The notes under the pieces: generated by a model
Databases searched by the model: none
Seen by the model: the letters and a program-made list of their open reading frames with translations, nothing else
What the model was told of the DNA's origin: nothing
Assembly (NCBI GenBank): GCA_900404475.1
Contig: OUQQ01000196.1
Coordinates: 1,797 to 35,641, forward strand
From: Spongospora subterranea
Lineage: Eukaryota; Endomyxa; Phytomyxea; Plasmodiophorida; Plasmodiophoridae
Direction: 5' to 3'
DNA: 33,845 nucleotides
Program-made: the position numbers and the translations under genes
Shown here: in pieces, positions 4,973-33,845 of the stretch
Numbering within the stretch: the first letter of the stretch is position 1
Layout: each line of letters opens with the position of its first letter

Positions 4973-5647
4973 TTAACGCCCTTCCTGCATACTGGGGAAG
5001 TCTTTGAACAGATCTTTAAACTTATCCAATGGCGCCATCAGCATACCCAAAGCCCCTTCTAAAGCGACCGGCTTCTCAGGCACTAATGTATGGGGTTGAG
5101 TTGGTGCTGTCTTCTTCATGGCTGCAAATTTGGTTGTGGCCCAGGCGTTCTGTGATTCTGATTGATACGCATCGGCAAGTATTGGTAGATCTTCAGATTC
5201 CTCCATTTTCAGATGTTTTTCAAGGTCAGTCCACAATTTCTCGACATTATTGTCGAACTCGCTCATATTATCCTTCACATTCAGTGTTTCTGACAACATC
5301 TCTTTCACCTTATGGTGGTCCGCTCTCGACTTGTCAGCGAGTTGACGGCCGCGATCGCTCACCTTCTCCAGCATCGGATACACGACCAACTCTTCGGCGA
5401 CTGAATGTCGGCAGAGCTCCCAAACAAATTGATTGAACCATTGGTTGGCTTCGTCGCTCGACGCCGCCTTCTTATACTTGTCGTAGCACGTACGCAGCTC
5501 GGTATGATCTCGCTTGATGATATCCACTAATCTATCGGATCCCATTGTCTCTCTGATGGCCTGTTCAGCGACTCCTTGTTGATATCGCAATCTGACGGCT
5601 CTCAATAGACCAGGTTTGAAGCGGTTGACAATGGACATGAATGTCAC
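4973..5647 (-). CDS. Hemerythrin HHE-domain protein
   Basis: A complete 224-residue ORF with no intron needed. It has the hemerythrin-like four-helix metal-binding pattern: His48 in RDHTEL, His81 and Glu85 in CRHSVAEE, His111/His112 in ADHHKV, and His145 with Glu149/Glu150 in KHLKMEES. Such domains hold a non-haem di-iron centre that binds O2 or NO or senses iron and redox state; the specific role here is not known. The first 22 residues are basic and amphipathic with almost no acids, so mitochondrial targeting is possible (inference). Met4 is an alternative start. The tail after residue 160 is proline/alanine-rich and ends in a short amphipathic segment. The nearest gene, PUS10, is on the same strand 570 bp upstream, with no sign of co-regulation. 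Confidence 0.85.
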   Translation of the reverse strand: MTFMSIVNRFKPGLLRAVRLRYQQGVAEQAIRETMGSDRLVDIIKRDHTELRTCYDKYKKAASSDEANQWFNQFVWELCRHSVAEELVVYPMLEKVSDRGRQLADKSRADHHKVKEMLSETLNVKDNMSEFDNNVEKLWTDLEKHLKMEESEDLPILADAYQSESQNAWATTKFAAMKKTAPTQPHTLVPEKPVALEGALGMLMAPLDKFKDLFKDFPSMQEGR

Positions 5648-6217
5648 GCGACTAAAACGCTAATGAACTTCTGCGGTTGAGATGCAACCCGAACCGTTCA
5701 TGCAAACACCGACGCCAAATCCGATACATCTAACGGGAGAGCCCATTTAAGAACTGATCGGACCTGGCATGATGGCACTAATGACAAGATATTGAATAGG
5801 GGCTGTTCACACTTTGATCAGAGCACATGGAAATGAGTTTAGATAGGACTACGACAAGATGACGGGGCCCGACATTGCGATAGATGGGTGGCCCGGTAGA
5901 TAACGGCACCGGTCGTCAACCATACCGCCTTCTTGTAATATATGTCTTGACGGATAACCCCTTCAGGAACAAACGTGTCCTTAGTCGAGAACGACTAGAA
6001 ACAGCGGACGACACCGTCTGTCGTCTCGGCAACAAAACCCGTTTGTCGCGATTTATTCTTGTGTTCAAATGGAACGAATATTGGAATAAGGACAACCGTC
6101 AATCTGTACGTGGCAGGTGCTAGGAAAAAATCAACACCGTCATTGTAAGTTTCGCAACAAAACTAAGCCATTTTTTTTACAAGATTGAACAATAAAAGAT
6201 GAAAATCCTTTTGACAA
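5648..6217. other. Intergenic, no gene supported
   Basis: This is the upstream region of the hemerythrin gene and the 3' side of PUS10. A 79-codon plus-strand ORF (5884-6123) has no recognisable features and I do not call it. An A/T-rich stretch at 6170-6230 fits the PUS10 transcript end. Confidence 0.4.
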
Positions 6218-7804
6218 TTATATATTGGTATGCAAGTCAATGACGTCGAGCTGCAATATATCAGCTTGACAATTTAGCATCGACCCAAGATTAGGTTGCG
6301 TCCTGCCACGATCACCATGAACAAACTCTTTGATATAGGTGCCGGCCTGCGCAACCAGGTCAATGATGGCGAAATGGGAGTTGATCGGACTAATAGACAA
6401 AGAGTGAATGGTTTTGGGACGAGAGAGAAGCGACCGTCGATGAAGAACGCGAATTGGTGTCAACTGATGGATATCAAAGGGAGGCATTGACGAAATTCGT
6501 TCACATTCCGATCGCGCAATCACGGACGATAGCCACACGATAGCTCGATAACTCTTGGTCTTGATTTGGGCGCCAAGCTGCAACGCTTTGAACTCGGCCG
6601 CATAATCAGGAGCCAGCGACAGCGCACTGATTTGAATGCGATCGGTGGACTCATTGACAATATTGGCTAGAGTCGATATGGAATCCCTATCAGGAATTAC
6701 ATGCGGATCCACTATTTCAATGATAAAATGCCGACCGGATCCCAGCATTCTCACATCTACATCCTCCCGCCCAGCTGCATGAAACTTATATCGGTCGCCG
6801 GCCTGAAATACGGATATGATAGGGTCCACGATCAATTCCTGCACAGAGTTGCCGATCTTGCGCTCGTCTTCGTCAAGTAGCCATGGAGTCTGAGATAAAT
6901 CCCGGCAGTACTTTGTGTACGATCCCGTCAATAATATAGGATCATGGTATACACGAACGCTGACAGATATGGGTGTCGTCTCAACAGATGTAATCGATAA
7001 TTGACGAATCTCATCGGACGTCATTACATTGATGGCACGATCCACAAATTTGTTGGATGTTAGATTAGACTGACGTATCCTCTTGGCAGATATATTCAGG
7101 GGAAGGGTTCTCCTAAGATAAGGAGAAAGATTCATAATGATTTCTGGGTCCGATGATGGATGATTTAATGCCAGATCGACATGGAACAATGAAGTAGAAG
7201 AGAATACAGCTGGCAATAAAGAAGATATGGATGAAATCAAAATCGATTTGAGGACCTCTTTGATTGATGTCGGGGGAGATGATCGTGATAGAACTGCCGT
7301 GTAGTACGCTTCTCGAAGCGCGCATACAGGAGGAACCGAAATGGCCAGAGCGTATGATGATAATGATGAATAAGACGAATACAGCGATCGCTCTGATACA
7401 CATGATATGACATCGGGTCGAACTTCATTCCCATGCTGCAGAATCCCGACGCACGCCGGGCAGATGACCGGCGACTGGTCAGATATGATATGATGGGCGA
7501 GGACCTGGCCGGGGTCCAGATCGGGGTGTCGCCCCGTAATATACGATGAGATGATATCCGACGACGATTGATAAATGGGATCGGACGAGGGGATACCCTG
7601 ATAACGTAAAGCGCAACGAGAGCAGAGTGACCTCGGGTTATGAGGTAACGGGGGCGAGAGTGGGTCAGGGGCTATGGCACTGGACCGATCACTGTCAGAC
7701 ACGATACCAGGGGTGACGCCAGGCCCATCTGAGCCCGTCACCGTCATATTGGGGTCAAGATCCGAAGTGTGGGTGGGGGCCTGCTGTACACGATACAGAG
7801 ACAA
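6218..7804 (-). CDS. PUS10: tRNA pseudouridine synthase Pus10
   Basis: A complete 528-residue, intronless ORF. The N-terminal THUMP-like accessory region carries two CxxC pairs (Cys61/Cys64 and Cys115/Cys118), as in the zinc-binding part of Pus10. The C-terminal catalytic half has the family signatures GSYTKYCRDLSQTPW (residues 294-308), FHAAGREDVDVRMLG (341-355, containing the catalytic Asp, 348 or 350) and EFVHGDRGRTQPNLGS (493-508). Archaeal Pus10 makes pseudouridine 54/55 in the tRNA T-loop. Animal PUS10 does so for a tRNA subset and also affects microRNA processing. Length matches the family (about 500-530). The first 55 residues are Ser/Pro/Asp-rich and probably disordered; Met20 is an alternative start. 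As I recall, budding yeast lacks this gene, so its presence argues against a yeast-like lineage. Confidence 0.95.
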   Translation of the reverse strand: MSLYRVQQAPTHTSDLDPNMTVTGSDGPGVTPGIVSDSDRSSAIAPDPLSPPLPHNPRSLCSRCALRYQGIPSSDPIYQSSSDIISSYITGRHPDLDPGQVLAHHIISDQSPVICPACVGILQHGNEVRPDVISCVSERSLYSSYSSLSSYALAISVPPVCALREAYYTAVLSRSSPPTSIKEVLKSILISSISSLLPAVFSSTSLFHVDLALNHPSSDPEIIMNLSPYLRRTLPLNISAKRIRQSNLTSNKFVDRAINVMTSDEIRQLSITSVETTPISVSVRVYHDPILLTGSYTKYCRDLSQTPWLLDEDERKIGNSVQELIVDPIISVFQAGDRYKFHAAGREDVDVRMLGSGRHFIIEIVDPHVIPDRDSISTLANIVNESTDRIQISALSLAPDYAAEFKALQLGAQIKTKSYRAIVWLSSVIARSECERISSMPPFDIHQLTPIRVLHRRSLLSRPKTIHSLSISPINSHFAIIDLVAQAGTYIKEFVHGDRGRTQPNLGSMLNCQADILQLDVIDLHTNI

Positions 7805-8469
7805 CGCAGAACTGGGACTGGAACTGCACTACCGTACCCCCTCCGACGCAAAATCTTGCGCGGGGTCGGCAATCTGGCGCTATTTCTAGAGCGATTGACC
7901 TTTGAAGGCTGACTACAGTACAGACTTTACTACGCAGACGGAGAATTTAGCGATTTTCGATAGGCTTCGTAAGCAGAGAAACTCAAAAAAGCACATTTGT
8001 CATTTTTCGAGGATTGCGGTATGGGCTTTGATTGATGTTATTGCGTTTATTATTGCGCGTTCTCTGAGTAAATCTTTCCTAATTATGGATCGATGGTTGT
8101 CTGATTCCACAGGAATTGCCGTTCAATTTGTTCTTGTTAAGTTGGAAAAACAGTGATAAGTATTACGACATGGTAACAGATTTACAGAAGGGAAAACGTG
8201 TGAGAGTATTGGCGTTGCCTGGTCGAGGAAAGTGCAGTTCGGATTGAGTGATTTGGCTGCATGAAGAGTTGACCAGCGAATTTCGAAGGCTTACGAAATG
8301 TCAATCAAAATTCTCTCCAAGCATTATGTGCACGCTGGCATGACACATTATAAGTGGCAGCCAAAAAGGAACATTCAATGCGAATTTTGCAGAAAGTGGT
8401 GGAGACTTGATAAGTTATACGATCATTAGCAATGCACGTAATCGAGGTTCGCGTTCACCTTCTGTAGCA
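7805..8469. other. Intergenic, no gene supported
   Basis: This lies upstream of PUS10. An 84-codon plus-strand ORF (7902-8156) with a short hydrophobic stretch has no recognisable motif. No RNA gene was seen. Confidence 0.4.
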
Positions 8470-10122: not shown

Positions 10123-13100
10123 TTATTGAGCTCTAAATATTACAGTCGATAATTTATGTTTGTCTTTTGTCCTATAATGTTCTAGCCAACATTGCGAGCA
10201 ATACAAAGACTGGCACAGATGGCAAAACTCGAATCCTTCTGCTCCCTTCCGAGATTTCTTGTTGCATAATCCGCATATTGCCGAAGTGGCAGGCCCACAA
10301 CGAAGCTCTGCTAAGATTGGTGCAGGTATTCCCCAACTCAGAACATAACCAGCTGTGTCACCAGACCAGAACTGGTTCAGATCAGGTGACACCGTCAATG
10401 CTGTGATAGGGGACTTATGTTCGCTGCTTCCCAAAATCCTACCGCAATGTATGGATCCATCAAAATCGGCAAACCAGACCACGATGCTACCATCAAAATG
10501 ACCACTTATAAGACACGCCGACCACCCAACGTGCGACGAACAGAACTGTAGTGACATTATCGCGCCAACAGATACGCGCTCATTGGTTGTTGATGCGACC
10601 TTATGACAGTTGCGATCCCAGATAGCAATATTACCATCTCCGAAACCAATACCAATATCTCCATTTCCCATGCAGTCAACTGATAGGATAATTGATGACT
10701 GGATGATATTCTGTGGTAGCAAAACATTCGCCACAGGTTCGAGCCGATTCAAATCCCAAATCAGGATCACCGTGTCTGCTGATGCAGATACAATGATAGA
10801 GAATTCGCTAGAGACTGCTAAGGAGACGATTGCCGTGATGTGACCATCTAGAGTGCCTCTTCTAACAAAGACTTCATCTGATTTCAACCCTTTTCGTTTG
10901 AACACAACAATGCTTGAATCCGAAGCACCGGTTATTAACGCCAAACCGTTAGTCGAAACGTGAACACAGGTAATAATGGCCCCAGGCGAATGAGCGCCAG
11001 TTATAGCCATTCTTGCGTATGATTCAGGTTCAGTTGAAAAAAAGCGAACTGTTCCATCAACCGTGCCCCAAGTGGCGTAAATATCGTTTGCAGGTCCAAT
11101 CAATGCCGAAAATAATGGCGATGTTTTGATTCTATCAGAAGTATATCCAATACATCCGATTGTCTTCCCCATCTGTTTCGCTTCTAGTAATTGAATATGT
11201 TTACAGTACCTGATCAAGTGAGCCTGATCGGTACGACCCTGGCGTGCCGGGTGCTGTTTGGTAAACAGTTGCTTCGGTGTCTGACCAAAGCTTCTAACTT
11301 GCTCAATCAGGGCCGATTTTCGGACAGGGTCGTTTTCTAAAGACTGAAAATCGACTTGTCCTTCATACTGATGTGAATAAATCAGCTATGTAAAATACAA
11401 ATATTATGTGAATCCTACACTGGTGTAATAAAAAGTATTACATGCTTCCACAGCAGCGGGACCTTTCTGCTTGTATCCATAAATTAGATCAATCCAATGA
11501 TGAATATTTGCAGACACATAGTCAGATTCTAGAGCTTGGCGATGAAGGGAGATAAACTTTCTCGGGCTACCGGAAGCCCATGGTGGTAGGACCACGTTAT
11601 CTGTTTCGATTCCGGACGATCGAATGCCAAGATTAAGATTTTTACCATTTACAAGGAATTCTGGCATGAAATAGAATTCGGGTAATAACTCTCGGACATC
11701 GCTGGTGCCTGCATTCGGCCCTGAACACGCATTCCAGCAGTCTCCTAAGTCGTGGAACATTCGATCGGGTTTATCGAATCGACCGCTGTGTAAACGTTTG
11801 AATTGAGAAGTGAACGGTTCCAAACGGACCAAGAAATTGAGGACTACTGGGGCGGAAGAATAATGTGTGCCATAGTTGAATTTTGGGATTTGATCATCCT
11901 CCCATGAATCGTACCGGTCTCTGAACATTTGTTCTCTGTCCCTGTCCAGTGCGCCTATAGGCTTACGTAAGTCTCGAAACGTAGCTGCCGATTCCAAATC
12001 AAGAGCGTCACTATGAAAATCTTGAACTACCCATGGAAATACAGGATACTGGGTAAGGTCGTTAAAGGTCCTTTGCGACAGTAGCGAAAGTTGCATCAAA
12101 TAGTCAAAGTTCGATAACTGCCCTCGCAGCCAGGTGTTAGTTGTAGCTTTCACTAAGCGATTGAGTCGCGAACTCTCTGTAGTAAAAAAAACAGTATTAA
12201 AATGGACCAGGGAGCACCACTTGGCCCATTACCACTATTAAACAAAGTTGCGGTCGAATCAGGATCTACTAATCTGGGGCTAATAAGACTCTCAGTTATT
12301 GACGGGGCATTCACTACAAATGCAACATACCAAGAGGCAATAAGTAGATCATACACGTCTTGCCTATCGGATACAGAGAATACAAGCAAAAAATTGTTAC
12401 CATCGATGAAGGAAATATCAAGCCCCGAAGGGTGCAGAAGATATCGGCACTTAGTTAAATGGGCTATCTGATCAAAGGTGAACCGTGCATTTGAAGGTAA
12501 GTTAGTGTCATTGTCGGCGTTCACTTGAGGGCTTAATTTTGCGTCGTGTGCCCAGTTCGATTTGGCTTGTTTCTTTTTTGATGGTGTCACCGGAGTAACG
12601 TCCCCGTTCTCATTGATGCGATATCCAATAATGAGAGACATTGAATTAGGACAAAGAACGAATATGCATTCTTTTTCATCAAGGCCGATAACCTTCCGGC
12701 ACGGGTAAAACGCTTGGATATCGGTTTCTGCTTCAAGCATGATTTTGAGTCTTTGCTCGCCCCGAAGCCAGAAATCGCTGATCACAGCGTCGTTATTTTG
12801 AGATTCGCTGGAGGCTTCACGTGGTGAATGCAATGCTGGTAATAAATGGGCAAGAGAAACGCTAGAGAGTCGTGATCGCGAATGATATTGGTTAAGTGGC
12901 CGGCGCCTTGACGTCAGCGGACCGGAATGACTTTGTGTTGAAGCATGTTTAGCAGAAGATGGATCAGGAACGTTGAGAAACTCATCTTCCCTTTTGTTTG
13001 CTGGTGCAGGGCTTTCTTTACTATCGGCAGCCTTGATAAGTTCATTCGAAGGCGCTTGCTTTCGGTTTTCCTGAATTGTAAGCTCATGATGGACTTGCGC

Positions 13101-16100
13101 ACGGCGCTTTAATTTCGAGCGAGTCCTGTTGGGGCCTTGAATAAGATCAAGTGTCCATAAGTCTTCCCAGGTCACTGATGGAACATCGTCGTGTTGAGTC
13201 CAAGACAGTGCCTGACAGGCCACTGTCCGATTCAGGTTGTCAAGATGAGAACTCCAGCGACAGGCGTTAGCCTTTTCAGCTTCCTTCGCAATTTGCTTCA
13301 ATGACAGTAAACGCAAAACTTCTCTCTCTCTGGCTTTTTGTAAATGGTGGAGAACTGCAAATTCCATATCGACTTGTGCCCCCGCGTCTCGTTCAAGACG
13401 GTTATTATCTTGTTCAGTGAATTGCGCAATGGCAGCATCTCTCTCACTTTTTTGATCTAATGTATCCCGCTTTCGAACAGATTCATATAACTTCCATACT
13501 GGCTCCAACATCGTGGTTGCCATAAACATGACAGAGTTTCGGTTGTTTTCGGAGCTGAGCCACGATAAAAAAGATGAGTACCTATCCTGCATCAGCCTGG
13601 AAAACCCGTTTTCTAGCAAATCAAGCGTGTATATATCAGGATCCCCTTCCAACCGATAGCTGAAAACGATGAGAGATTCAAAAAGCGAGAAATGTCTCAG
13701 CGCAACCCAATGCCAGATCTTCGCGCAAATATGTTGCGAATTTCCATCTCCATTAATCAGTTGAAGAGTAGCATGATAAAGAACAGAAACTACAAAATCT
13801 TCATCATCCGAAACACATAACAGATGAGCATGTTCAAAAATAAGCTGGTACAGCTCTCCGGAGTGTTCCTGATCGCGCCGCGACAACCGAAACAATATCA
13901 TTCGTCTAGAGGCTTCCAATAGTGCACTTGAGATTAAATCACCTTGACTGGCGGAAAATTGGTCGCGTTCCAGTAAACGGTGCAGAGAAAGGCAATACGC
14001 CGTTTTTTCAAGCACATCTTGTGAATATCTTCCTAGGTATATATGTTCAGCCATATATTGGATCATTGCGAAGAAGCTTGAGCGTAAAGAAGCGTTTTGC
14101 TGAAGATCAGATTGGTTGCAACCGTGTTCAGATATTCGCTCAAAAAGCGCAACGATGATTCTAGACTGGTACGCATTCAACGCAGCTTCGCTAATATTAA
14201 AAGGAACGAGACACAATGCACGACGTAGTAGACTTAGCGGATCGGAACGGGAGAGGAACAACGTTTTGTATAACAGCCATACAAGCAGTTTCTCCATCTT
14301 TAAAAAAACCCATTTAATCGGAAACCTTTGAATATAGTTTAGCTACTTACCTCTTTACTCAAATGTTCTCCGCCCAAGACATCGCTCTCAAAGACAAATC
14401 TCGCATCTGCGACCTGCTTGATGATAGAAATTTCATACAAAGAACCTAGTGGATCAGCATTGATAGAGGAAGAAGAAGACAAAGCAATAATTTCTGTGAT
14501 GGCTTGAATAGAATCAATGAGCAGATCTGAATTGACAGCATCGTTGGGTTTCGATCTCCGAGAACTGTTGGTCCTTGATGAGGTTTCAGCCAACTTCTCA
14601 TGAGTTTTGTGATAGACAAAAGAGTCGTCCGAAAACCTTTTGTCATCCAGAGCAGGCGAGGTGACCTGACCTAAGGGCAATATGGCAGCATCGTCGTCTG
14701 GGATATTCAGCTGAGGCACCCGAGAAATAACGGGAGACATCGAACGCCGCGACATTGGAGAAGATATCAAAGTTTGCGTATTAACAGTAACGGAATGGTT
14801 TGAATCGCGTCGAGAAACGCCAATTGAGGAAGGACGCAGAGCAGATACAGACCCATGTCTATCCATAATTGATGGCCTTTTTACGTGAGTTGCGCCAAAA
14901 ACGATTAAACTAACCAATATATGAGCTGCACCGGGGAAGCAAATAGCGCGAGATTCTGCTGATTGGCTGATGATAACCTTGGTCAACTCTTTTACAGACA
15001 TGGTTTCTAAGGGCGTTTGAGGTAACTGGTCAGAAAATTCAAAATACGGTCTGCCAGAAAGCATCAATAAAAGCATTGAGAAAACTTCTGGGTATGAACA
15101 AAATGGCCGTAGCGTTTTGAAAAGAATATGAAATGAACCTGACTTGAAAAAATTATCTGCCATCAACGGTTGCTTGAGAAAGAATAGATTCATCAGTTGC
15201 AACGCTACTAGAACAGTTCGTCTTTGCGGATTCCGTCCTCCTTCCACCAAAATGCAAATAAAATACGCATCCATGGAGTTGGCGTAAACCCCAAGTTGGG
15301 CGACATTCCCACTCTCAAACGCCTGCCGTACAAGAGATAACAACATCTCAAGTAACCGGTGTCTCCGGTTATCAGCCCACACGGAATGCGACTTCAGCTT
15401 TACCGAAGCTGTCCATGAATGTGTTGACCCCGGAGAGTTGACACTATAAGGGCTGCTGGGAACCGATATCGGGCTTGATTCCTGACTGTAATCGACCTTA
15501 TCACCATTAGATTGGCTGGGTTGCAGCTGGACAGCAGCAATAGCCGAATCACATACAATCGCAAAATTTTCTGGGTTAGTTGATGATGAAATGAATATCC
15601 CGAGAAGCCGTGTCAGGCCAATTTCAGTTTCTTCTGCCAAGTCCTCCTCGCCTAAGACCGATACGATTCTAGGAACAGGATTTCCAATGGACTCAATTGC
15701 CTTTAGATTTTGTTGGGAAGCAGTATTGAAAACGATGGCCTCTTCCAATGTTGTGATCAAGAGCTTCTGCACTGTAGGAGAGGTATTGATCCAAACATTC
15801 ATATCCATAACTAAACTATCAAGAGCCCAGGTGTTTACAATACGGCCACTTTTGCCTCTGCTGTAGAGCCCAATGATAGCCAGAACCAAATCTACAGTTT
15901 TACTGTCCCAAAGAGTGCATAACTTCTTTAGAAGGGACGCAAGCGAGATGTATTCCGATTGGACAGTCATTTTCCTGATAAAATCAGTACAATCACGCAA
16001 CAAGAGGGTGATTGCGAGAAGCCACTGATTTAACTCATCTGGAGTGCGAGATTTGCTCAGGAAACGAAGAAAATGGCTAATGCTGCCTACACTAGTTGAG

Positions 16101-18019
16101 GCTGCCGCTATTCCAATTGGAGAGTATACGGCAACGTGCCCCATGCTTTGGGAATCATCTTGAATATGTGCAGTACATGAACTAATAAGAAACATATAAT
16201 CGACATCTTTGCATGGGAATGGTACAATCCGCGAATGTTGAGCATGTACCATTGCAATAAATGATGAACCGGGAATTAGTTGGTCAGAAAGTGATGCAGC
16301 AGATAGTAAGCTGACTGATCGTGAATGTTGGGATCTTTCAGGGATTGGATGTGTGGCTAGTAGCGCTAGCTCTATCGCAGAACTAGCCTGTAAATATTCT
16401 GCAGTGTGATTGAAGACTCTTTGGGCGCCGCCCACCATTATTGCTTGTCTTCCCAACGCAAACCATTTGGCAGCAATTGGTGAGGTAACTGCCACGTTTA
16501 GAAGTGTGCATGACGTTACCTTCCATCGTGTGTCAGATTTGGGTTGCTGTAAATCAGGCCACGTCCCAATCACGAAAGTGAATTTTCCACTTGCTCCGCT
16601 TTGTCCTGGTTGAGTTCCCCAAGTGTTGGGATATGGAAGCTTTAGTGACTGGATTGTTTCACCATTCACATAAACTGTCATCATTGAGGACTGTAGTAGT
16701 TTTCTTTCGTGCGTTAGCACCAGGTGATACCATATCCCTGCGACCCATTCGAAATCCATTATCGGGATCAAGGTGGAGCCACATTCCAGATACAGATGGC
16801 CACCTTTTACAAATACGGCAAACTGGCCTAGAATGGCGAAAAGATGTATATCACTAGCTTGAGAATCAATGTAAAACCACAACGCAATACTGTACCCTTT
16901 TGGAGGGGGCCATTGCTCAACGTCCGATATTTGTGTGATCATACAGGACGCCCCTGACGTGCCAAGGTCGAACTGAATAAATGGTATTTTGGCGCCAGGT
17001 AACAGGAGTTCTTCCACCAAAAACCCCACCAAATGCGGTGATTTGTCAACAGCGTCCAGAAACCGATTAACACACACAGGCGAAGGACGATAAGTAAGAA
17101 GGATCTTTAACAATGATAGAAAGGGTTTCCACCTAAGATCAGACTCATCCTGCAGTATAGACGAAAACTGTACCAAAAAAGCGTCGGTTATTGATGGTAA
17201 TGACATCATCAAAATAACATTTATCTCAAACTGAGAGAGACATTTTTGAAGAAGGCTGAAAACGTCACGTTGAGCACAATTACTGCAATATGGCAACAAT
17301 TTTACAATGATGGGAATAATTGGAATACTTCCAATGATGCCCGGGCTGAGAGAAGAGAGATCGCTGTTCCACAGAGCATCGAACTCCGACGATGACTGGT
17401 GCAGCGCGGACAAAAAAAAAGACAAAATGAGTGGGTCTGCATTTTCTGGAGTTTGGATAAGTTCAGATTTCAGAACAGCAGCCTCGATTAACCGGAAACT
17501 ATTGAAAAAGTGGCAACTTTGGCGGGCTGCGGCGCAATAGGCTAAAGCCGAGCCAATAACCCTGATCAGGTTACGAAACAGGTCCGCACTTGAAATCGAA
17601 GATAGCATATCGATGAAACACGACAGCATACCTTGATCAACTAGGAAGTATGCCTTGAAAGCGTCCTGAATATCTGTTGATTCCAAATATTGACGGCAAA
17701 TAGTCAACACCAAATCTGATCGATTTCCAGTTGACAACATCTGCTGCAAAATTTTGATAACAGGTGCAGCATCTGGCGGAGCGATGCTCAAAAATGCAAC
17801 AATAAATGTCCTCATATTTGGCAACTCTAGAAGAGATGGAACGAGAGAGAGGAACTCCATCGACTGAGCAACAATGGGGAGTAGTTGCCTGTTTAGCAGG
17901 CATAATTCCACCAAACTTCTACCGAGCGGAATTCGCTCCTCCAGCAACGGTTGTTGGGCGATAAACTTCATAAGAGTGGTGCATTGAACCAGGGGCGGCG
18001 GTCCAGGACCCGAATCCAT
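10123..18019 (-). CDS. BEACH-WD40 protein (beige/ALFY/neurobeachin family)
   Basis: Four exons: 18019-14351, 14297-12233, 12176-11419 and 11367-10123. Introns are 53, 56 and 51 nt (donors GTAAGT, GTAATG, GTAGGA), and phases join to 2,578 codons plus stop. Order: helical armadillo-like N-terminus; ConA-like domain about 345-510 (PPPKGYSIALWFYID); a second helical region; Ser/Arg-rich linker about 1625-1715; PH-BEACH about 1745-1885; BEACH about 1915-2195 (NFDYLM, DLTQYPVFPWVVQDF, FMPEFLVN, VLPPWASG); WD40 repeats about 2215-2520; terminal Cys/His zinc finger. BEACH proteins are large scaffolds in membrane trafficking, lysosome biology and selective autophagy. The zinc finger position recalls ALFY/WDFY3, but its spacing is B-box-like. 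Met at 18019 directly follows an in-frame TGA; a further 5' exon is possible. The stop codon overlaps AATAAA. Confidence 0.93.
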
Positions 18020-26409: not shown

Positions 26410-28099
26410 TTATCTTATTCGCGAAAGTCGGGGAGTCTGAGAGCGAAGAGCGCTTCCAGGAGTCTGACTCAGGTCGTTCTGCGCCCTTAGACGGCGAGCA
26501 GGAGTTTTTGGCGGCAATACTTCATCGACAGATGGCCCATTTTGCATCAGTATCTTGGAGCGACGAGCTGGCGTCTTGGGCGGCAGTGATTCATCGGTGC
26601 AAGCTGCATTTTGCTTCAACGTCTTTGAACAGCGACCTGGCGTCTTTGGTGGCAATACTTGATCTGCGAATAATTCATTCTGCACTAACACCTTTGAACG
26701 GCGAGCTGGCGTCTTTGGCGGCACAATTTGATCATCGAAATCGTTGCTATGAAAATCGATTTCCATCTGAGTCGGTGCTCGGCGACGTGGTGTCTTTGGT
26801 AGTAAGTCTTCATCGGCACAGGGTCCATTTTGAGACAGCATGTTTGACCGGCGAGTTGACGCCTGTTGTGGGAATACTTGATCCCCGAGATTGGTCTTTG
26901 AAGAAACGGCTTCCGTCTGAACCGATGCTCGGCGACGTGGTGTCTTTGGCGGTAGTGATTGCTCAACTGGAACGCCCTTCGGAGTCGTCGCATTCTTCTG
27001 AATCCTGGAGCGACGTCCTGGGGTTTTTGGCGGAAGTGATTGACTATCGGCAGGGTCCCACAAAGAATCAGGTTTTATCAGCGCCTTGGATGGTCGATTT
27101 GGAGTTTTTGGCGGCAATGGTTTGGCAGCTGACGTCGGAGAATCAGCGACAACCTGAATTTCGGAACGGCGTCCTGGCGTCTTTCTCCTGACCGCTTGAT
27201 CATCAATATCTACAGTCGGGGAATCGCATCGATTTTCCAGTGTGTGTGAGCGACATCGTGTCGTCGGCAAACTTTTCAGCGGAGAATCGAGGCATTCCAG
27301 ACGACTCGTAGGCGACGACTCCCCAGGTGCTACCTTCGCAGGGAAATTGCTCGACGTTTCCGAATTGGAGGCGAGCTTGAGAGTCTTTGCCCTTGATAGG
27401 CCGCTAAAGACGCTGAGTGGGGAGCGGGTTTCGGCTCTTGCTGTGGAAGGATTGGATGAAGCCGGAGCCTGCCTCAAGTAGGCTCGTCGGGTTTCATTCT
27501 GTGGTGATAGACTGCTTGGAGAGAACCGACCAGAAGTTTCAGAAGAAACTCGATTTGGTGACCGCTTAAACTCCATTGGAATTTTACGAACAGGCGCACG
27601 GGAGTTTGGAAGCCCCGAATTGTTAGTATCCTCCAGCAAGATTGGTCTCCTTCGAGAAATTGTCCCAGCGCTCTGCAAAATAAGCGGATTCTTTGTTCTG
27701 ACAGAGCGAGAAGAAGCTGATTTTAGCGTCCGTCGCGAGCGTTGTGGAGTTTGAATCACATCTTTTGATAAGCAATCTCGTGGGTCTTCAAGGTTGTGCT
27801 GAGCAAAAGTAACGGAAAAGGGATCCCTGTTCTCCTGAGTAATCCTGGAAGTAGTTTTCGATGCTATCGATCGCGCTGACCTGTTCCCGAAACCTTTTTT
27901 TAAAGATTCATCGAAGGTAGCTGTGTCAACGTTGCAGTCTAACTCCACTGGTTCAACATTCTCTTGAGTCAGCGTTGAGATTGAAAGGGCATCAAACGCG
28001 CCAGTTATCTCGTCAGTGTGAATTATTGGTTCTGATAAGCGTTGGGTAGGACCTTCACGGGGCACCATTGACAACGCCCCAGCCTGGCCGGTATTATTT
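26410..28099 (-). CDS. Disordered CDK-site repeat protein: separase C-terminal tail or separate securin-like gene
   Basis: The open frame from the acceptor at 28100 to the stop at 26410 encodes about 562 residues, almost all predicted disordered and rich in Ser, Pro, Arg and Lys. Ten repeats of 20-30 residues cover the last 260 residues, with consensus LPPKTPxRRS; most contain TPxR, the full CDK site. The N-terminal part has RRTL and RSPL (RxxL, D-box-like) and two QENxxP motifs resembling KEN boxes. No folded domain is visible. In the fused model a 31-nt exon (28156-28186) and introns of 46 and 56 nt join it in frame to separase. In the separate model it starts at a 4-residue MFRR exon with an 87-nt intron, only about 28 bp after the separase stop. 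A securin-type role is inference from position and composition. Confidence 0.75.
26485..27195 (-). repeat. Coding tandem repeats (KTPxRR units)
   Basis: Ten degenerate units encode KTPGRRSE, KTPNRPSK, KTPGRRSR, KTPRRRAS, a decayed QASTRRSN, KTPRRRAP, KTPARRSK, KTPGRCSK, KTPARRSK and KTPARRLR. Spacing varies, which points to old duplication with selection on the motif core. The repeat also produces a spurious 227-codon ORF on the opposite strand. Confidence 0.9.
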
Positions 28100-28224
28100 C
28101 TGTCAAGAGAAAAAAAGTAAGCCAATACAACCTCGATTAAAAAAAACCTGCCGACCTGTGATTCTCGATGAATGGCTTAGATATACCTGCGAAACATTAA
28201 AAATGATCAGATAAAAAAAAAGGT

Positions 28225-31200
28225 TCACCTACTCCGGGAATAAACCGGTACCCCATAACAAACTGGGGATGCTCCAACTAATCCTGTAAGCTTGCACGAT
28301 TTTCGAGAATCAGAAACCGCGCTGGATAACTCTAAACAAACTATGTTTTGAGAGCAAGTCGAAAGGTTAACAGAATACCGACCTGGATAATCTTGGCTGT
28401 CGATCCATTTATTCAGCAGGGCTTGGCTGAATCTATCTATATCAGTATCGGTCACATCCCAGAGATTNGGGGATGCTCCAACTAATCCTGTAAGCTTGCA
28501 CGATTTTCGAGAATCAGAAACCGCGCTGGATAACTCTAAACAAACTATGTTTTGAGAGCAAGTCGAAAGGTTAACAGAATACCGACCTGGGTAATCTTGG
28601 CTGTCGATCCATTTATTCAGCAGGGCTTGGCTGAATCTATCTATATCAGTATCGGTCACATCCCAGAGATTGCCAAGGACTGCAGGGCACCCAGCTTGGA
28701 GATAGGACAGACACATGCCACGAGGTTCATACTCACCCGATGATCTTAACAACCCGCTACTGCACCCTAACAGTAAAGAAGTTGAACGAATCTACACAGG
28801 GGAAACCACAATAAGATAAAGAACAAAACAACAATAATTGCTATAGTTACGGTGCTGCTCTTTAGCTCCTGTTGGCCGAAAAATTGCTCTCCCGCAGAAT
28901 GGCCGCAATACAGAAACAAGTCGAACTGAGACAAAGCTTGCCGGTAAGTGTCTTTAGATGGTGGTTGGCCAACAAGACCTGTCCACCCCGACCGTTTACT
29001 AAAATCAGTTTCAAGGCGGGCCTGGACCACAAGATGAGGCAGGGACTCGACTAAAATGTGTTTGCGCACCTGTGTCTCAGGCAGGTCGTTGCCAGGATTG
29101 AGGATATAAAAAGATGAACTGGGATCCAAAACGTGATGCTGGGCGCGGCAACCAATCATGAACTGCTACCATATTCAGTAAACCTCGGTATGAGGACCGC
29201 ACAAACGTCAGAGATTACAAGTGACGGGACGCGCGAGACAGATTGGCCTTGTAGACAAGGCATACTCTCCCATGGTAAGTGTTGAACGGTTTTGTCAAGT
29301 ATCAGAACTACCGGATGTCGCGATGCAGAAACAGTCAGGTCGAAAGCTTCGATTAAAGTGGACGCGCTGAAACCTATTTCCGTAAGCTGTTGAATTCAGA
29401 CGATGATGTTATGCAATGCTTATACCGAAGTTGTCGTCAACGAACTGGAACTGCGTGTCAGATAGATGTGGGTGACCAGCCGCAAAATTGACACAAAGCT
29501 GTCGACTTCGAACGTCTGAATCCATCGTTAGATTCCCCACGATTAATTCAAGACCAAGCGTACCGCCACGGGAGTTACTATTGAGATTCTGCGACCTGTT
29601 TCCTACTGGGTGTCCAAAGAGAAGAGCTTTGTAACATCCTAAGCATTCGTTCTCCAATTTTTCCAGCATTTTGTGCAGTCTCCTGTCCAGCAGGTTTCTT
29701 TCAGACCACCACTGCCTTCTCTACGTAAACACAGGAGGTTCCCAAGCGAAGTAAAACCAGTAACGCAATCAATTGTACCTGAACTGGAGTATCCGCTGGT
29801 GCCTTTGTCGATTCCTTGCTCAGAACCATGATAGAGTTGAATTCTTCGATCACCTCATCAAGGACCTTTCTGGGAACCCGAACAGAAAGTGGCGGCTCGT
29901 TATGGTTGATACGGCATATATAACTGTGGCCATCAACGACTGTTAAGAAAAATTTTGAGTTGATACAATGCATACAGATTGTTCGATGAGCACGTCAAAG
30001 TAACGACAGACCATTCTGGACGAATTGCGTTGATGCAATACTGTAACAAACAAAGTAAGAGTTGTGTCGGATTCGGCAAATCTATATGATCCGCTACATC
30101 TTTGAAAAGTTTGCATGATATTTCGATATCAACGTTGGATGATTTTGGCCTCGGGGCCACCTCGGAGAGACAATTTTCAGCGCTTGCTTTGTCTATTAAA
30201 GATTCTGTTTGGACCGAAACTGACAACCCTAAGGACAATTGAACGACAAAGTTGTAACAGATTATAATAATTACAAACCAGCGTTGAGCGCCCAACCCGA
30301 GACATATGGCCTTGAGATGCCTTCAACTTCAGCAATTAGCAAGGTCAACTTCTGACGAAATGCAGGGATCTTGAACCTTTAATTTAGTACCTATCGACAT
30401 TATTGGTGCTCATGAACCTACCGGAGCATTGGATGTAAGGTTCCATGCCTTGTTAAGATGATATTTGATACGCGATAACAGTGCTATGACGTTACTGGTC
30501 AAAGCAGACAACAACATGATATCGAGGTAAAGAACCTTCTGGCTCTTGTGATGACGGCGATTTCCATAAATAGTCACTGCAGTGGGCTGAGGCCAACCTT
30601 TCAGCTTCCATAAAATGGTATCGCCCAACTTGAATGCTTCCAGCAGCTTCGGCAACCTTCGCCAACTTAGAAAGCAAATCGTCCGTAGGCGACGTATCGG
30701 AATAGGCGATGCGCCTTAAAAGTCGACATTTCAAGACAGAATCTGCAAAACAATTTGAAATAAATTATAAAAGAGAAACCGTGTGCGACTTACTAGGTGA
30801 CAGGCTCATCGCCCTGCTATAATAATTTGAATCCGAGGACGCATCACCTCGTATCAAGCACGCAAGCGCTTGAATGTCGGGAAAGGAAAAGTTTGGAGTA
30901 CTGCAAATAGCGTCCACCCGATCCAGAAGTGTCGACGCCTCCACAAATTTGTGACGCTTTAGTTGTATACGAGCGAGTCCACAAAGCGAGTAGCACGTTG
31001 ACCAAGGTGAGAATTGAGATTCAGCCAACGATAATCCCTTCAAGATAAACTTGAACAAGCGTGTTCAGAAGCCATGGACTAAGATGATACCTGAGTATAA
31101 TAGTAGTAAGCATGCAAATGATTGCCTGTTAGCTCTGATAAATCCCCAAGCATAGTAAGATAGCGATGAAGGCGAATTATAGAAAATTGGTTTCGCCGCG

Positions 31201-33845
31201 GTTGGTTGTATTGATGGCGCACAGCTTGTCCTGCTGCCAGCAACGCCTCTGGTACGTTGCCTGCATGGAGATGTAGCATCGAAATCGACATTAGATAATC
31301 TGATAAGGCGTCGGAAGCACAATTTGGCAGACGATGACATAATGACTCCACGTTCCGAAAGGCGCCAAGAAAAATTATATCCATAAAACGGGAAAACTTT
31401 TGATCTTGACCGAAGCGGTTATACATGTCAACAAAATGTTNTGTCCTGCTGCCAGCAACGCCTCTGGTACGTTGCCTGCATGGAGATGTAGCATCGAAAT
31501 CGACATTAGATAATCTGATAAGGCGTTGGAAGCACAATTTGGCAGACGATGACATAATGACTCCACGTTCCGAAAGGCGCCAAGAAAAATTATATCCATA
31601 AAACGGGAAAACTTTTGATCTTGACCGAAGCGGTTATACATGTCAACAAAATGTTCGGTAAATTGGCTACAGCTATCCCTAACAAACAAAAAAGATTTAT
31701 ATACATAACAGAGCAAAATCAACAAAGCGTAGCGATGTACATGTTTACAATCAACTGCATGATCGATCTGGCCAGCTCAAAAGTCACTTGAGATGGAGAC
31801 TTTAGAAGCCATAGACAGTGGAGCAACAACGGCCCCCGCACCTTCCTGACCAACTGCGCTTCGACTGCCAATGCCAGCGTGTGAGATTCTTTGAGGGCAT
31901 TCCATTGAGATTCGATACAATGAGAGTTTCCTAAGTCTACAAGATTCTCTAAAAATTTTGGGAGCAAAGAGGCACATTCTGAGAGCATATCGATGGGCAT
32001 TGTGCGAGGGCATAGTAACTCTAAAGCAGAATCTGGGAAAAACAACAGATAAATGCATGCCAAGATTCGTACTATTATGTCGTGTGTACCTAAATGCGCC
32101 AGCGCCAAGTTCTGAGTTTCAGTATTGGATGAAGATGATTCGTGCAAATACAGCGACGCCAACAGACTATGGCAGCGAGACTGCAGTAGGTTGTCAGTTA
32201 ACTACAGGAGGACACATGATTAATGCAATGAAAAGGGATAAGGTTTTGATCACTTCTTACTAAAGTCAGGGCCAGGGTTGCCGAATGTTGGGCATCCGAA
32301 TCCTCACGACGCGAATAAGCACACATAGCCATGTTGAAATAGTTTTCTCCACTGCTTATGGCATTCAGACAAAATAGAGAGAAGATAACGACGGCCAGTA
32401 CCTGGGGCAATAATTTATAAGAGTTTTGAACGAATGACTAAGAGCTCTGAATGCGGAGGAAGACATTGTAAACGATGAATACCGGGCGATTTCTGCTTCC
32501 AAAAGCAAAATAGCTTTTTCTTCATCATGTTCCGGCAACAAATCGGCAGAGCATATCTAGGATGGATTACATACAGGCTATGCGATTAACCGAAAGTGAT
32601 ACCGGTTCATTTCTGCAATTACGCCATTTCGCGTTGGCGAACGCAAAAGCTAAGGCCTTTGCTCTACTGGCAGGACAACGGGCGAAGGCGGGACCAAATT
32701 GAGATAAGAAGTCGCCGCTACCTAATTTGATGCAATGTTAGATCACCTGCTGGTTAACAATGTGGTTTAACCTTGACGGGCGCGAACGTCGCTGACCATT
32801 TCAAGGCATTTACCCAAACGCTCCCCAATATTGTCATCAAAATCGAAATTGCAAATAAGTTTCACAGTTCGCAAAAGCATCTAATTTGATAGTAGTCAGA
32901 CTACAGAGGAGATATGATGTCAATACATAAGTTGTACCTGCTCAGCAAATACATCATGGTATGTACTATTGAACAGCATTACCGACATGTTGAAGGATAT
33001 TCCCGAAAGTACGTTCACCTTTTGGAGATCCATTGGATTTGAAGCAAGGATAAGCGATTCTGCAATATCCAGCTGTGATTCAACTTGATCAAAATCGCCG
33101 CCAACCGAGAATGAGCATTGCAGCGCCCTTATGATGTTCTCGAAACTAGACAAATATACGGCGGCGGACTGAAAAAAAATCGAACAATATGACGCCCTTT
33201 TCGGATCTTGTTCTCTGAACGAGATTAAACACGAACTGCATGACTTTTTCGCATGTCTGCCGTCGTTGAGGTACGTTAAACGGCACCAGTCGACGCCGTG
33301 TCTGACCACATCTGATACAAGCTCAAAATAATCGGGGCTGATGCTGGCTGAAAGACATGAAAGTGAGTGAACCAATATAGTTGCAGATCAAGTGAGCGTC
33401 CTACAGAGGGATGGAATGGAACCCTGACCGGTTATCAAAGAACTCCACCAACTCGATAGAATTTTGAGGTCAAGGTCTCCGTCAGAAAGGATATTGATAC
33501 TTGGCATTATCCGAGTTTCTAGTGTAACGAGATCTTTTTGTATCAGCGCCGTATACGCGACACGGTACATCCATTTGACGGCGAAAAAGAGTTCTGCACG
33601 GGGCACAGATTTGGCCCAGCTGCAAATGAAACCTGTTACGTCAACGTTGACCTTGATTTGCGTAGCGGCATCCAGCTCAGAGCGCAATGAGCATTTGAAA
33701 AAGCGAGGATGGTCGCCACTTCTCAACAAATACCGCATGGAGCAACATCGCCAAGTAAAAAATTCCAGGCACGCTTTGGAGCACGATATGTCCCAAGCGG
33801 TCTGATACAAAATTAGGAACAATTTCTTGGAGTGGTCTGAAAACA
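28225..33845 (-). CDS. ESP1: Separase (cohesin-cleaving cysteine protease), 5' partial
   Basis: Separase cleaves the cohesin kleisin Scc1/Rad21 at anaphase onset. The peptidase C50 region is clear: HPVVLILDK and HLPWESMPC (exon 29219-29386), VLDPSSSFYILNPGNDL, the His motif LFLYCGHSAGEQF (His codon 28899-28901), the Cys motif LLLGCSSGLL (Cys codon 28762-28764), GEYEPRG, AGCPAVLGNLWDVTD and DIDRF, and the end CKLTGLVGASPVCYGVPV. Upstream exons encode the long helical repeat region. The first exon runs off the window, so the start is missing. With the two duplicated joins collapsed, about 1,422 residues are visible. The stop at 28225 is used only if the donor at 28232 is not spliced; splicing there continues into 26410-28099. 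The usual GHG is GHS here. Confidence 0.95.
28265..28671. repeat. Duplicated 203-bp segment around a single N (assembly join)
   Basis: 28265-28467 and 28469-28671 are identical apart from one base (A at 28387, G at 28591; synonymous Tyr codon) and meet at N 28468. The copy duplicates part of the separase LWDVTD exon. Because 204 is a multiple of three, the frame survives, but the catalytic-domain segment would be present twice. Confidence 0.95.
31227..31655. repeat. Duplicated 214-bp segment around a single N (assembly join)
   Basis: 31227-31440 and 31442-31655 differ at one base (C at 31312, T at 31527; Asp versus Asn on the minus strand) and meet at N 31441. The 215-bp insertion breaks the separase frame. 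Collapsing it restores AAGQAVRHQYNQ in continuous frame. Confidence 0.95.

Follow-up and report, generated by a model that had tools for sequence, protein, structure and literature searches.

Does the gene for separase, the protease that separates chromosomes when cells divide, stop in the root parasite Spongospora subterranea where separases canonically end, or does splicing carry it on into a long array of sites for cyclin-dependent kinase (CDK)? The question is raised by a 33,845-nt stretch of contig OUQQ01000196.1 (the window), in which a separase gene on the minus strand is followed by an open reading frame (ORF) rich in KTPxRR motifs. A reading made from the letters of this DNA alone (the sequence-only reading) had proposed that the two encode a single protein, with the tail as a built-in regulator or a fused securin. 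We find that the separase of the clubroot organism, Plasmodiophora brassicae, has a CDK-type tail in the same open frame as its catalytic domain, and by comparison with it separase and tail are probably fused in the window species too.

The separase gene occupies positions 28225–33845 inside the window, contains many short introns and encodes a C50 protease (peptidase C50): profile PF03568 matches two window ORFs (E 5.5e-19 and 4.3e-23), and spliced alignment to the P. brassicae separase (P0002) places the first ~165 residues of the N-terminus beyond the window edge. Sequence and alignment to other separases locate the catalytic His codon at 28899–28901 (GHSAGEQ) and the catalytic Cys codon at 28762–28764 (GCSSG). 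The Asp of the P1-Arg pocket (human D2070) is present in an aligned TDxDID, and the canonical separase C-terminus reads GASPVCYGVPV. A profile search of the species' own genome (an assembly of 20.59 Mb in 679 contigs) gave four C50 matches, all within this gene, which is the sole separase found by searches of this genome. The GC content of the window is 45.8%; values given in PMC6328671 are 45.1% for Polymyxa betae, 45.7% for S. subterranea and 58.5% for P. brassicae.

The tail exon (P0001; 26410–28099, minus strand; ~563 codons) contains 21 [ST]P sites, 12 of which have the full CDK consensus, [ST]Px[KR]. Units of the form (PP)KTPxRR are arrayed from 26491 to 27183, most often at intervals of 69 or 81 nt. 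The sequence-only reading had seen in these units a CDK-site repeat, and the array indeed lies far beyond chance: 12 full sites were found against 2.04 expected, a count matched in none of 2000 shuffles, and there are none in the 1353 aligned residues of the separase body. The tail is a low-hydrophobicity, mostly basic repeat sequence rich in CDK consensus sites; its first 60 residues are acidic, with a net charge of -7. No second copy was found in the species' own genome at E <= 10, and no Pfam profile matched at E <= 0.01. A search of the protein database gave no match at E <= 0.001 among 7992 candidates, with length limits that exclude the fused 1649-aa protein of P. brassicae.

That protein, P0002, is the top match to the window separase (E 3.0e-65; 52% identity over 71% of the query region), and in a tree that took in 117 of 163 domain rows the two form a two-row clade (SH-aLRT 99; 61% identity over 192 columns). 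After GASPVCYGIPV it continues for 158 residues with 10 [ST]P and 4 [ST]Px[KR] sites; its body has no full CDK site in 1491 residues. A second source of the same sequence came from a search with a shorter query: P0159, an ORF of 277 residues from environmental DNA (contig of 9,419 bp), agrees letter for letter with P0002 on either side of a retained 20-codon intron. The retained intron suggests that P0159 is genomic DNA, and the identity suggests that it comes from P. brassicae. From GCSSG, in the catalytic-Cys exon, through the end of the tail, P0159 is stop-free in a single frame. Whether or not these two suggestions hold, tail and catalytic domain share one open frame, and the tail is not an annotation join. 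The sequence-only reading had suggested looking for the same fusion in relatives, and here a relative bears a CDK-site tail in an uninterrupted frame. In the open-access library searched we found no prior report on the P. brassicae separase.

How unusual is such a tail? The separase search listed the best 120 of 519 proteins, and the following counts refer to these. At most 15 residues follow the YGxP motif in 103 of them, 16–40 in three and more than 40 in two, and the motif is absent from 12; inspected by eye over their last 40 residues, these 12 showed no long tail. The window's own tail ORF, P0001, is a thirteenth row without YGxP, outside the 120. The two proteins with more than 40 residues past YGxP are P0002 and P0035, whose 69-residue tail is lysine-rich and has no TP sites, and full CDK sites after YGxP occur only in P0002. 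Among 44 proteins from the shorter-query search the sole long tail is that of P0159; values above 30 for P0139 and P0143 are false pattern matches, and two of the 44 lack the motif. An environmental separase from this set, P0154, has 42 residues after YGLP with one KTPRR, and STPSKQPRR just before the C-terminal conserved block. P0154 was considered as a further plasmodiophorid relative and rejected, since the tree does not group it with them. The CDK-free body is not special to this pair, as six of nine other separases examined had no full CDK site anywhere. On these comparisons, a separase with a CDK-site tail appears so far in plasmodiophorids only.

Of 1803 own-genome ORFs of at least 60 residues, none matches the P. 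brassicae tail better than the window tail does. Two results weigh against treating the tails as counterparts. The tail-to-tail alignment is marginal, its score of 84 being reached in 32 of 1000 trials with both sequences shuffled and in 53 of 1000 with one shuffled, and the four CDK sites of the P. brassicae tail were reached by 56 of 2000 shuffles. The case for homology of the tails therefore rests on their position, their motif type and the contrast between body and tail. From these we strongly infer that the 563-residue KTPxRR ORF is the counterpart of the P. brassicae tail and that splicing connects it to separase by removing the canonical stop.

How would this splicing occur? The separase ORF ends in ...GASPVCYGVPVYSRSR-TGA, and the TGA (28225–28227), which follows GVPVYSRSR, would be intronic in a fused gene. 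The likely path, as read from the DNA, removes it with a putative 46-nt intron (28187–28232) that has a weak donor, GTAGGT after an exonic A, and a very strong acceptor, TTTCGCAG. A putative 31-nt mini-exon follows (28156–28186; ...SISKPFIENHR...), placed from the sequence and an enumeration of joins, and then a putative 56-nt intron (28100–28155) with donor GTCGGC and acceptor CTTGACAG. Within the 46-nt intron, CTGAT resembles what we take to be a branch-site consensus. The sequence-only reading had laid out this same path, and its coordinates proved exact: all features lie on the minus strand, the donor GTAGGT starts at 28232, and frame is kept into the ORF at 28099–26410. Its further observation that both introns resemble other separase introns in length also holds, 46 and 56 nt lying within the 39–59 nt spanned by 19 separase introns kept as reliable.

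Splice-site strength bears on the choice between this path and two models in which the KTPxRR protein is encoded by a separate gene. The acceptor at 28187 is in the top 0.29%, and that at 28100 in the top 0.09%, of 28,597 own-genome AG sites, on a scale where the 19 training acceptors themselves lie anywhere between the top 0.2% and the top 42%. A fusion uses both acceptors. A two-exon separate gene, starting at an ATG at 28195–28197 (MFR from an 11-nt first exon, an 87-nt intron, then RNNTGQ...), uses only 28100, and an intron-less gene starting at 28066–28068 (MVPREG...) uses neither. The presence of two very strong acceptors favours the spliced fusion, as a separate gene leaves 28187 unexplained, and 28100 too if it is intron-less.

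If the KTPxRR protein were such a neighbour, separase would end at the canonical TGA, and P. brassicae would have gained its tail by fusion through loss of the stop. We regard this as unlikely. The sequence-only reading had itself named a separate gene as the competing model; its ATG is real, 27 nt past the stop, with the 11-nt exon, and the model is weakened by the single frame that separase and tail share in P. brassicae. The compact genome of P. brassicae, in which untranslated regions overlap (PMC4815078), is in keeping with close neighbours. Intron length can be argued either way: the 87-nt intron is outside the 39–59 nt range of the retained separase introns, and longer separase introns, since dropped, were also placed. 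Moreover, 4 of 35 kinesin intron estimates exceed 80 nt (these estimates are gaps between neighbouring profile matches, with pairs whose profile gaps fell outside -12 to +5 residues excluded). The failure of the tail to match any of the 7992 database candidates also speaks against an independent protein, with the limit that a diverged disordered protein would be missed.

Several further points weigh against the fusion and have to be set beside the P. brassicae frame and the acceptors. The first fusion donor (28232) is weak, scoring 1.4 where the 19 training donors score at least 4.1 on a matrix built from those same donors. The separase stop falls exactly at the canonical C-terminus, and the donor that follows the ATG beyond it, GTATAT (7.99), greatly exceeds either fusion donor in strength. 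Preservation of frame is expected by chance and is no evidence by itself: 368 of 500 spacers shuffled by dinucleotides allowed a frame-preserving join by one or two introns of 38–62 nt, and the real spacer allows five such joins. Under looser limits 51 in-frame joins exist, with the 46/31/56 path 10th by raw splice-site sum, and the alternatives include in-frame single introns at 28232–28176 (57 nt) and 28228–28100 (129 nt). Loss of the stop in P. brassicae could also have joined separase there to a neighbour that is still separate here.

The intron range, too, has to be read with care. Gene models were made from codon scores and then by P. brassicae-guided splicing, with introns that the latter forced into the tail dropped, and no usable intron peak was obtained from donor-acceptor spacing over 234 kb. 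Spliced alignment to P0002 placed 24 introns upstream of the junction. Of these, 18 were retained as reliable and a nineteenth, 28382–28341, was added by hand; six were dropped as doubtful or as lying in a duplicated stretch, namely 31975–31937 (39 nt), 31723–31620 (104), 30097–30041 (57), 29578–29506 (73), 28586–28476 (111) and 28455–28330 (126). The 39–59 nt range is therefore partly our own choice, and, as a further point against the fusion, it leaves out the placed introns of 73, 104, 111 and 126 nt. The intron added by hand, 42 nt long with donor GTCGGT, lies near the separase end, at about the position of the intron that P0159 retains and P0002 lacks. It matches that intron, so GTCGG donors may be in use.

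The last separase exons contain a feature of a different kind, two near-identical 203-nt copies (28265–28671) flanking a single N at 28468. A second single-N join, at 31227–31655, is flanked by near-identical 214-nt copies; their spacing of 215 is not divisible by three, which breaks the separase frame. One mismatch is visible by eye in each duplicated pair. Because P0002 has a single C-terminal copy, the duplicated stretches look like assembly artefacts and not protein repeats; the joins are probably overlapping or allelic contig ends.

If the tail belongs to separase, what might it do? Its composition and sites suggest, with moderate confidence, a disordered multisite CDK target, which would make separase a direct substrate of mitotic CDK. 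The best reading of the locus, and one toward which we lean, is a separase variant of plasmodiophorids whose disordered tail is regulated by CDK at multiple sites. A more specific proposal, that the tail serves as a CDK switch in cis, is tentative and falls a little short of an even chance. Clustered full CDK consensus sites are present within separase itself (in the window, only if the tail is fused). At high CDK1 activity the phosphorylated tail would hold separase inactive or away from cohesin. It might do so by filling phosphate-binding docking patches, bringing in cyclin-CDK-Cks or covering basic RR motifs; at anaphase, the drop in CDK activity would release separase. The C-terminal tail would then do what internal inserts do in vertebrate separase. 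In human separase, control involves disordered internal inserts phosphorylated by CDK1 and autoinhibitory loops (PMC10317155, PMC12609080), and there are positively charged phosphate-docking sites (PMC12609080).

We compared five residues of these docking sites using human residue numbers from PMC12609080 and our own mapping to alignment columns. Both species keep R2071 and have Lys in place of R2101; at R2017, P. brassicae has Lys and the window Ser. Against the proposal, both carry Gln where the human protein has R2008, and the residue at R2067 is Val or Thr. Support for the mechanism that we favour, in which the phosphorylated tail would dock in cis, is therefore mixed.

A different use of the same sites is a chromatin tether or nuclear-import tail, in which basic (S/T)PxRR units, switched by CDK phosphorylation, would bind DNA or serve as import signals and bring separase to cohesin; we consider this doubtful. 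The tail units are indeed basic (TPxRR), and they can be likened to S/T-P-x-K/R sequences, which are DNA-binding motifs. Four other separases, P0015, P0016, P0017 and P0136, list PF02037, which we take to be the DNA-binding domain SAP, and such a fusion may thus occur in other separases. The acidic start of the window tail does not fit this role.

On the cohesin side, a Rad21/Rec8 N-terminal profile match (E 1e-9, one internal stop) was observed elsewhere in the genome (L038; G000:C537:4246-4401), a possible kleisin substrate of the window separase.

Is the tail instead a securin? Here the sequence-only reading fares less well: the P. brassicae frame and the acceptors at 28187 and 28100 support its fusion, and its securin identity is unsupported. 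Motif scans of the window and P. brassicae tails found no KEN box, no separase-site consensus (S/D/E)xExxR, no NxLxPhiE and no LPE. Of the two degrons that it had associated with securin, a D-box-like motif is present, RPILLEDTN (27622–27648; RxxLxxxxN), and is no rarer than chance, at least one such motif occurring in 379 of 2000 shuffles; the P. brassicae tail has one looser match. In place of KEN there is only ENxxP, KEN-like without the Lys. The window tail has two, QENRDP (27820–27837) and QENVEP (27949–27966), a number reached in 15 of 2000 shuffles, and the P. brassicae tail has one, SENEPP, reached in 30 of 2000. The securin profile PF04856 gave no match in the genome; it was silent in its controls too, so this search says nothing. 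The tail may work like a securin, and securin identity is unlikely.

The strict form of the idea would be a fused pseudosubstrate inhibitor switched off through degrons of the anaphase-promoting complex (APC/C), in plasmodiophorids that have no free securin. The low hydrophobicity, the CDK sites, the D-box-like motif that each tail contains and the excess of ENxxP over shuffles all fit, as do the repeats DESLPPKTP and DEVLPPKTP, whose ExxP core the pseudosubstrate site of securin resembles. ExxP occurs just three times in the window tail, however, and the missing motifs and the chance-level D-box count against the idea. So does the logic of degradation, since with degrons in cis the protease itself would be degraded. 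On the side of the idea is a survey that did not include Rhizaria, the group to which plasmodiophorids belong: it reported securins from Metazoa and Fungi alone, the metazoan and fungal ones not being homologous to each other (PMC3195147). On balance we think a true cis-securin very improbable. Only slightly less so would be the broader scenario that plasmodiophorids have no free securin and that multisite CDK phosphorylation of a cis inhibitor tail, not proteolysis of a partner, times anaphase.

Other genes in the window include a hemerythrin HHE domain protein (4973–5659, minus strand), a Pus10 pseudouridine synthase with both domains on a single ORF (6218–7828, minus strand), a large gene of BEACH/neurobeachin type that includes WD40 repeats (ORFs at 10123–18019, minus strand) and, on the plus strand, an ORF with the integrase core domain rva_4 (PF24764; 21945–22970) that is probably a mobile element.

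A separase with a CDK-site array of its own would be a natural test case for how separase is restrained outside animals and fungi; in plants a securin-like protein exists. Within the C50 family (Esp1/Cut1/ESPL1), the window protein shares the catalytic His and Cys, PWESMP, NLWDVTDxDIDR and the GASPVxYGxPV end, and differs, if fused, by its C-terminal extension of ~560 residues. A CDK-site array after YGxP would mark two plasmodiophorids and no other of the best 120 of 519 separases. The P. brassicae protein (P0002; P0159) is alike in having a body without full CDK sites, a tail with several and an Arg-rich end. It differs in the length of the tail (158 versus ~560 residues), in the number of full sites (4 versus 12) and, in P0159, in having neither stop nor intron between the separase end and the tail. 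With the securins (human securin/PTTG1, Pds1 and Cut2) the tail shares an apparently disordered character, CDK sites and a D-box-like motif; they are free proteins with a KEN box and a pseudosubstrate, motifs that the window tail does not have. Inserts 1 and 2 and the autoinhibitory loops of vertebrate separase are likewise disordered separase regions with CDK control in cis, and they are internal to the TPR-like domain and not C-terminal, with control centred on S1126 and not on an array (PMC10317155). Similar in design are the engineered cis-fusions of structural work, laboratory constructs in which a regulator is tied to separase in cis (PMC12609080); the plasmodiophorid tail would be their natural counterpart.

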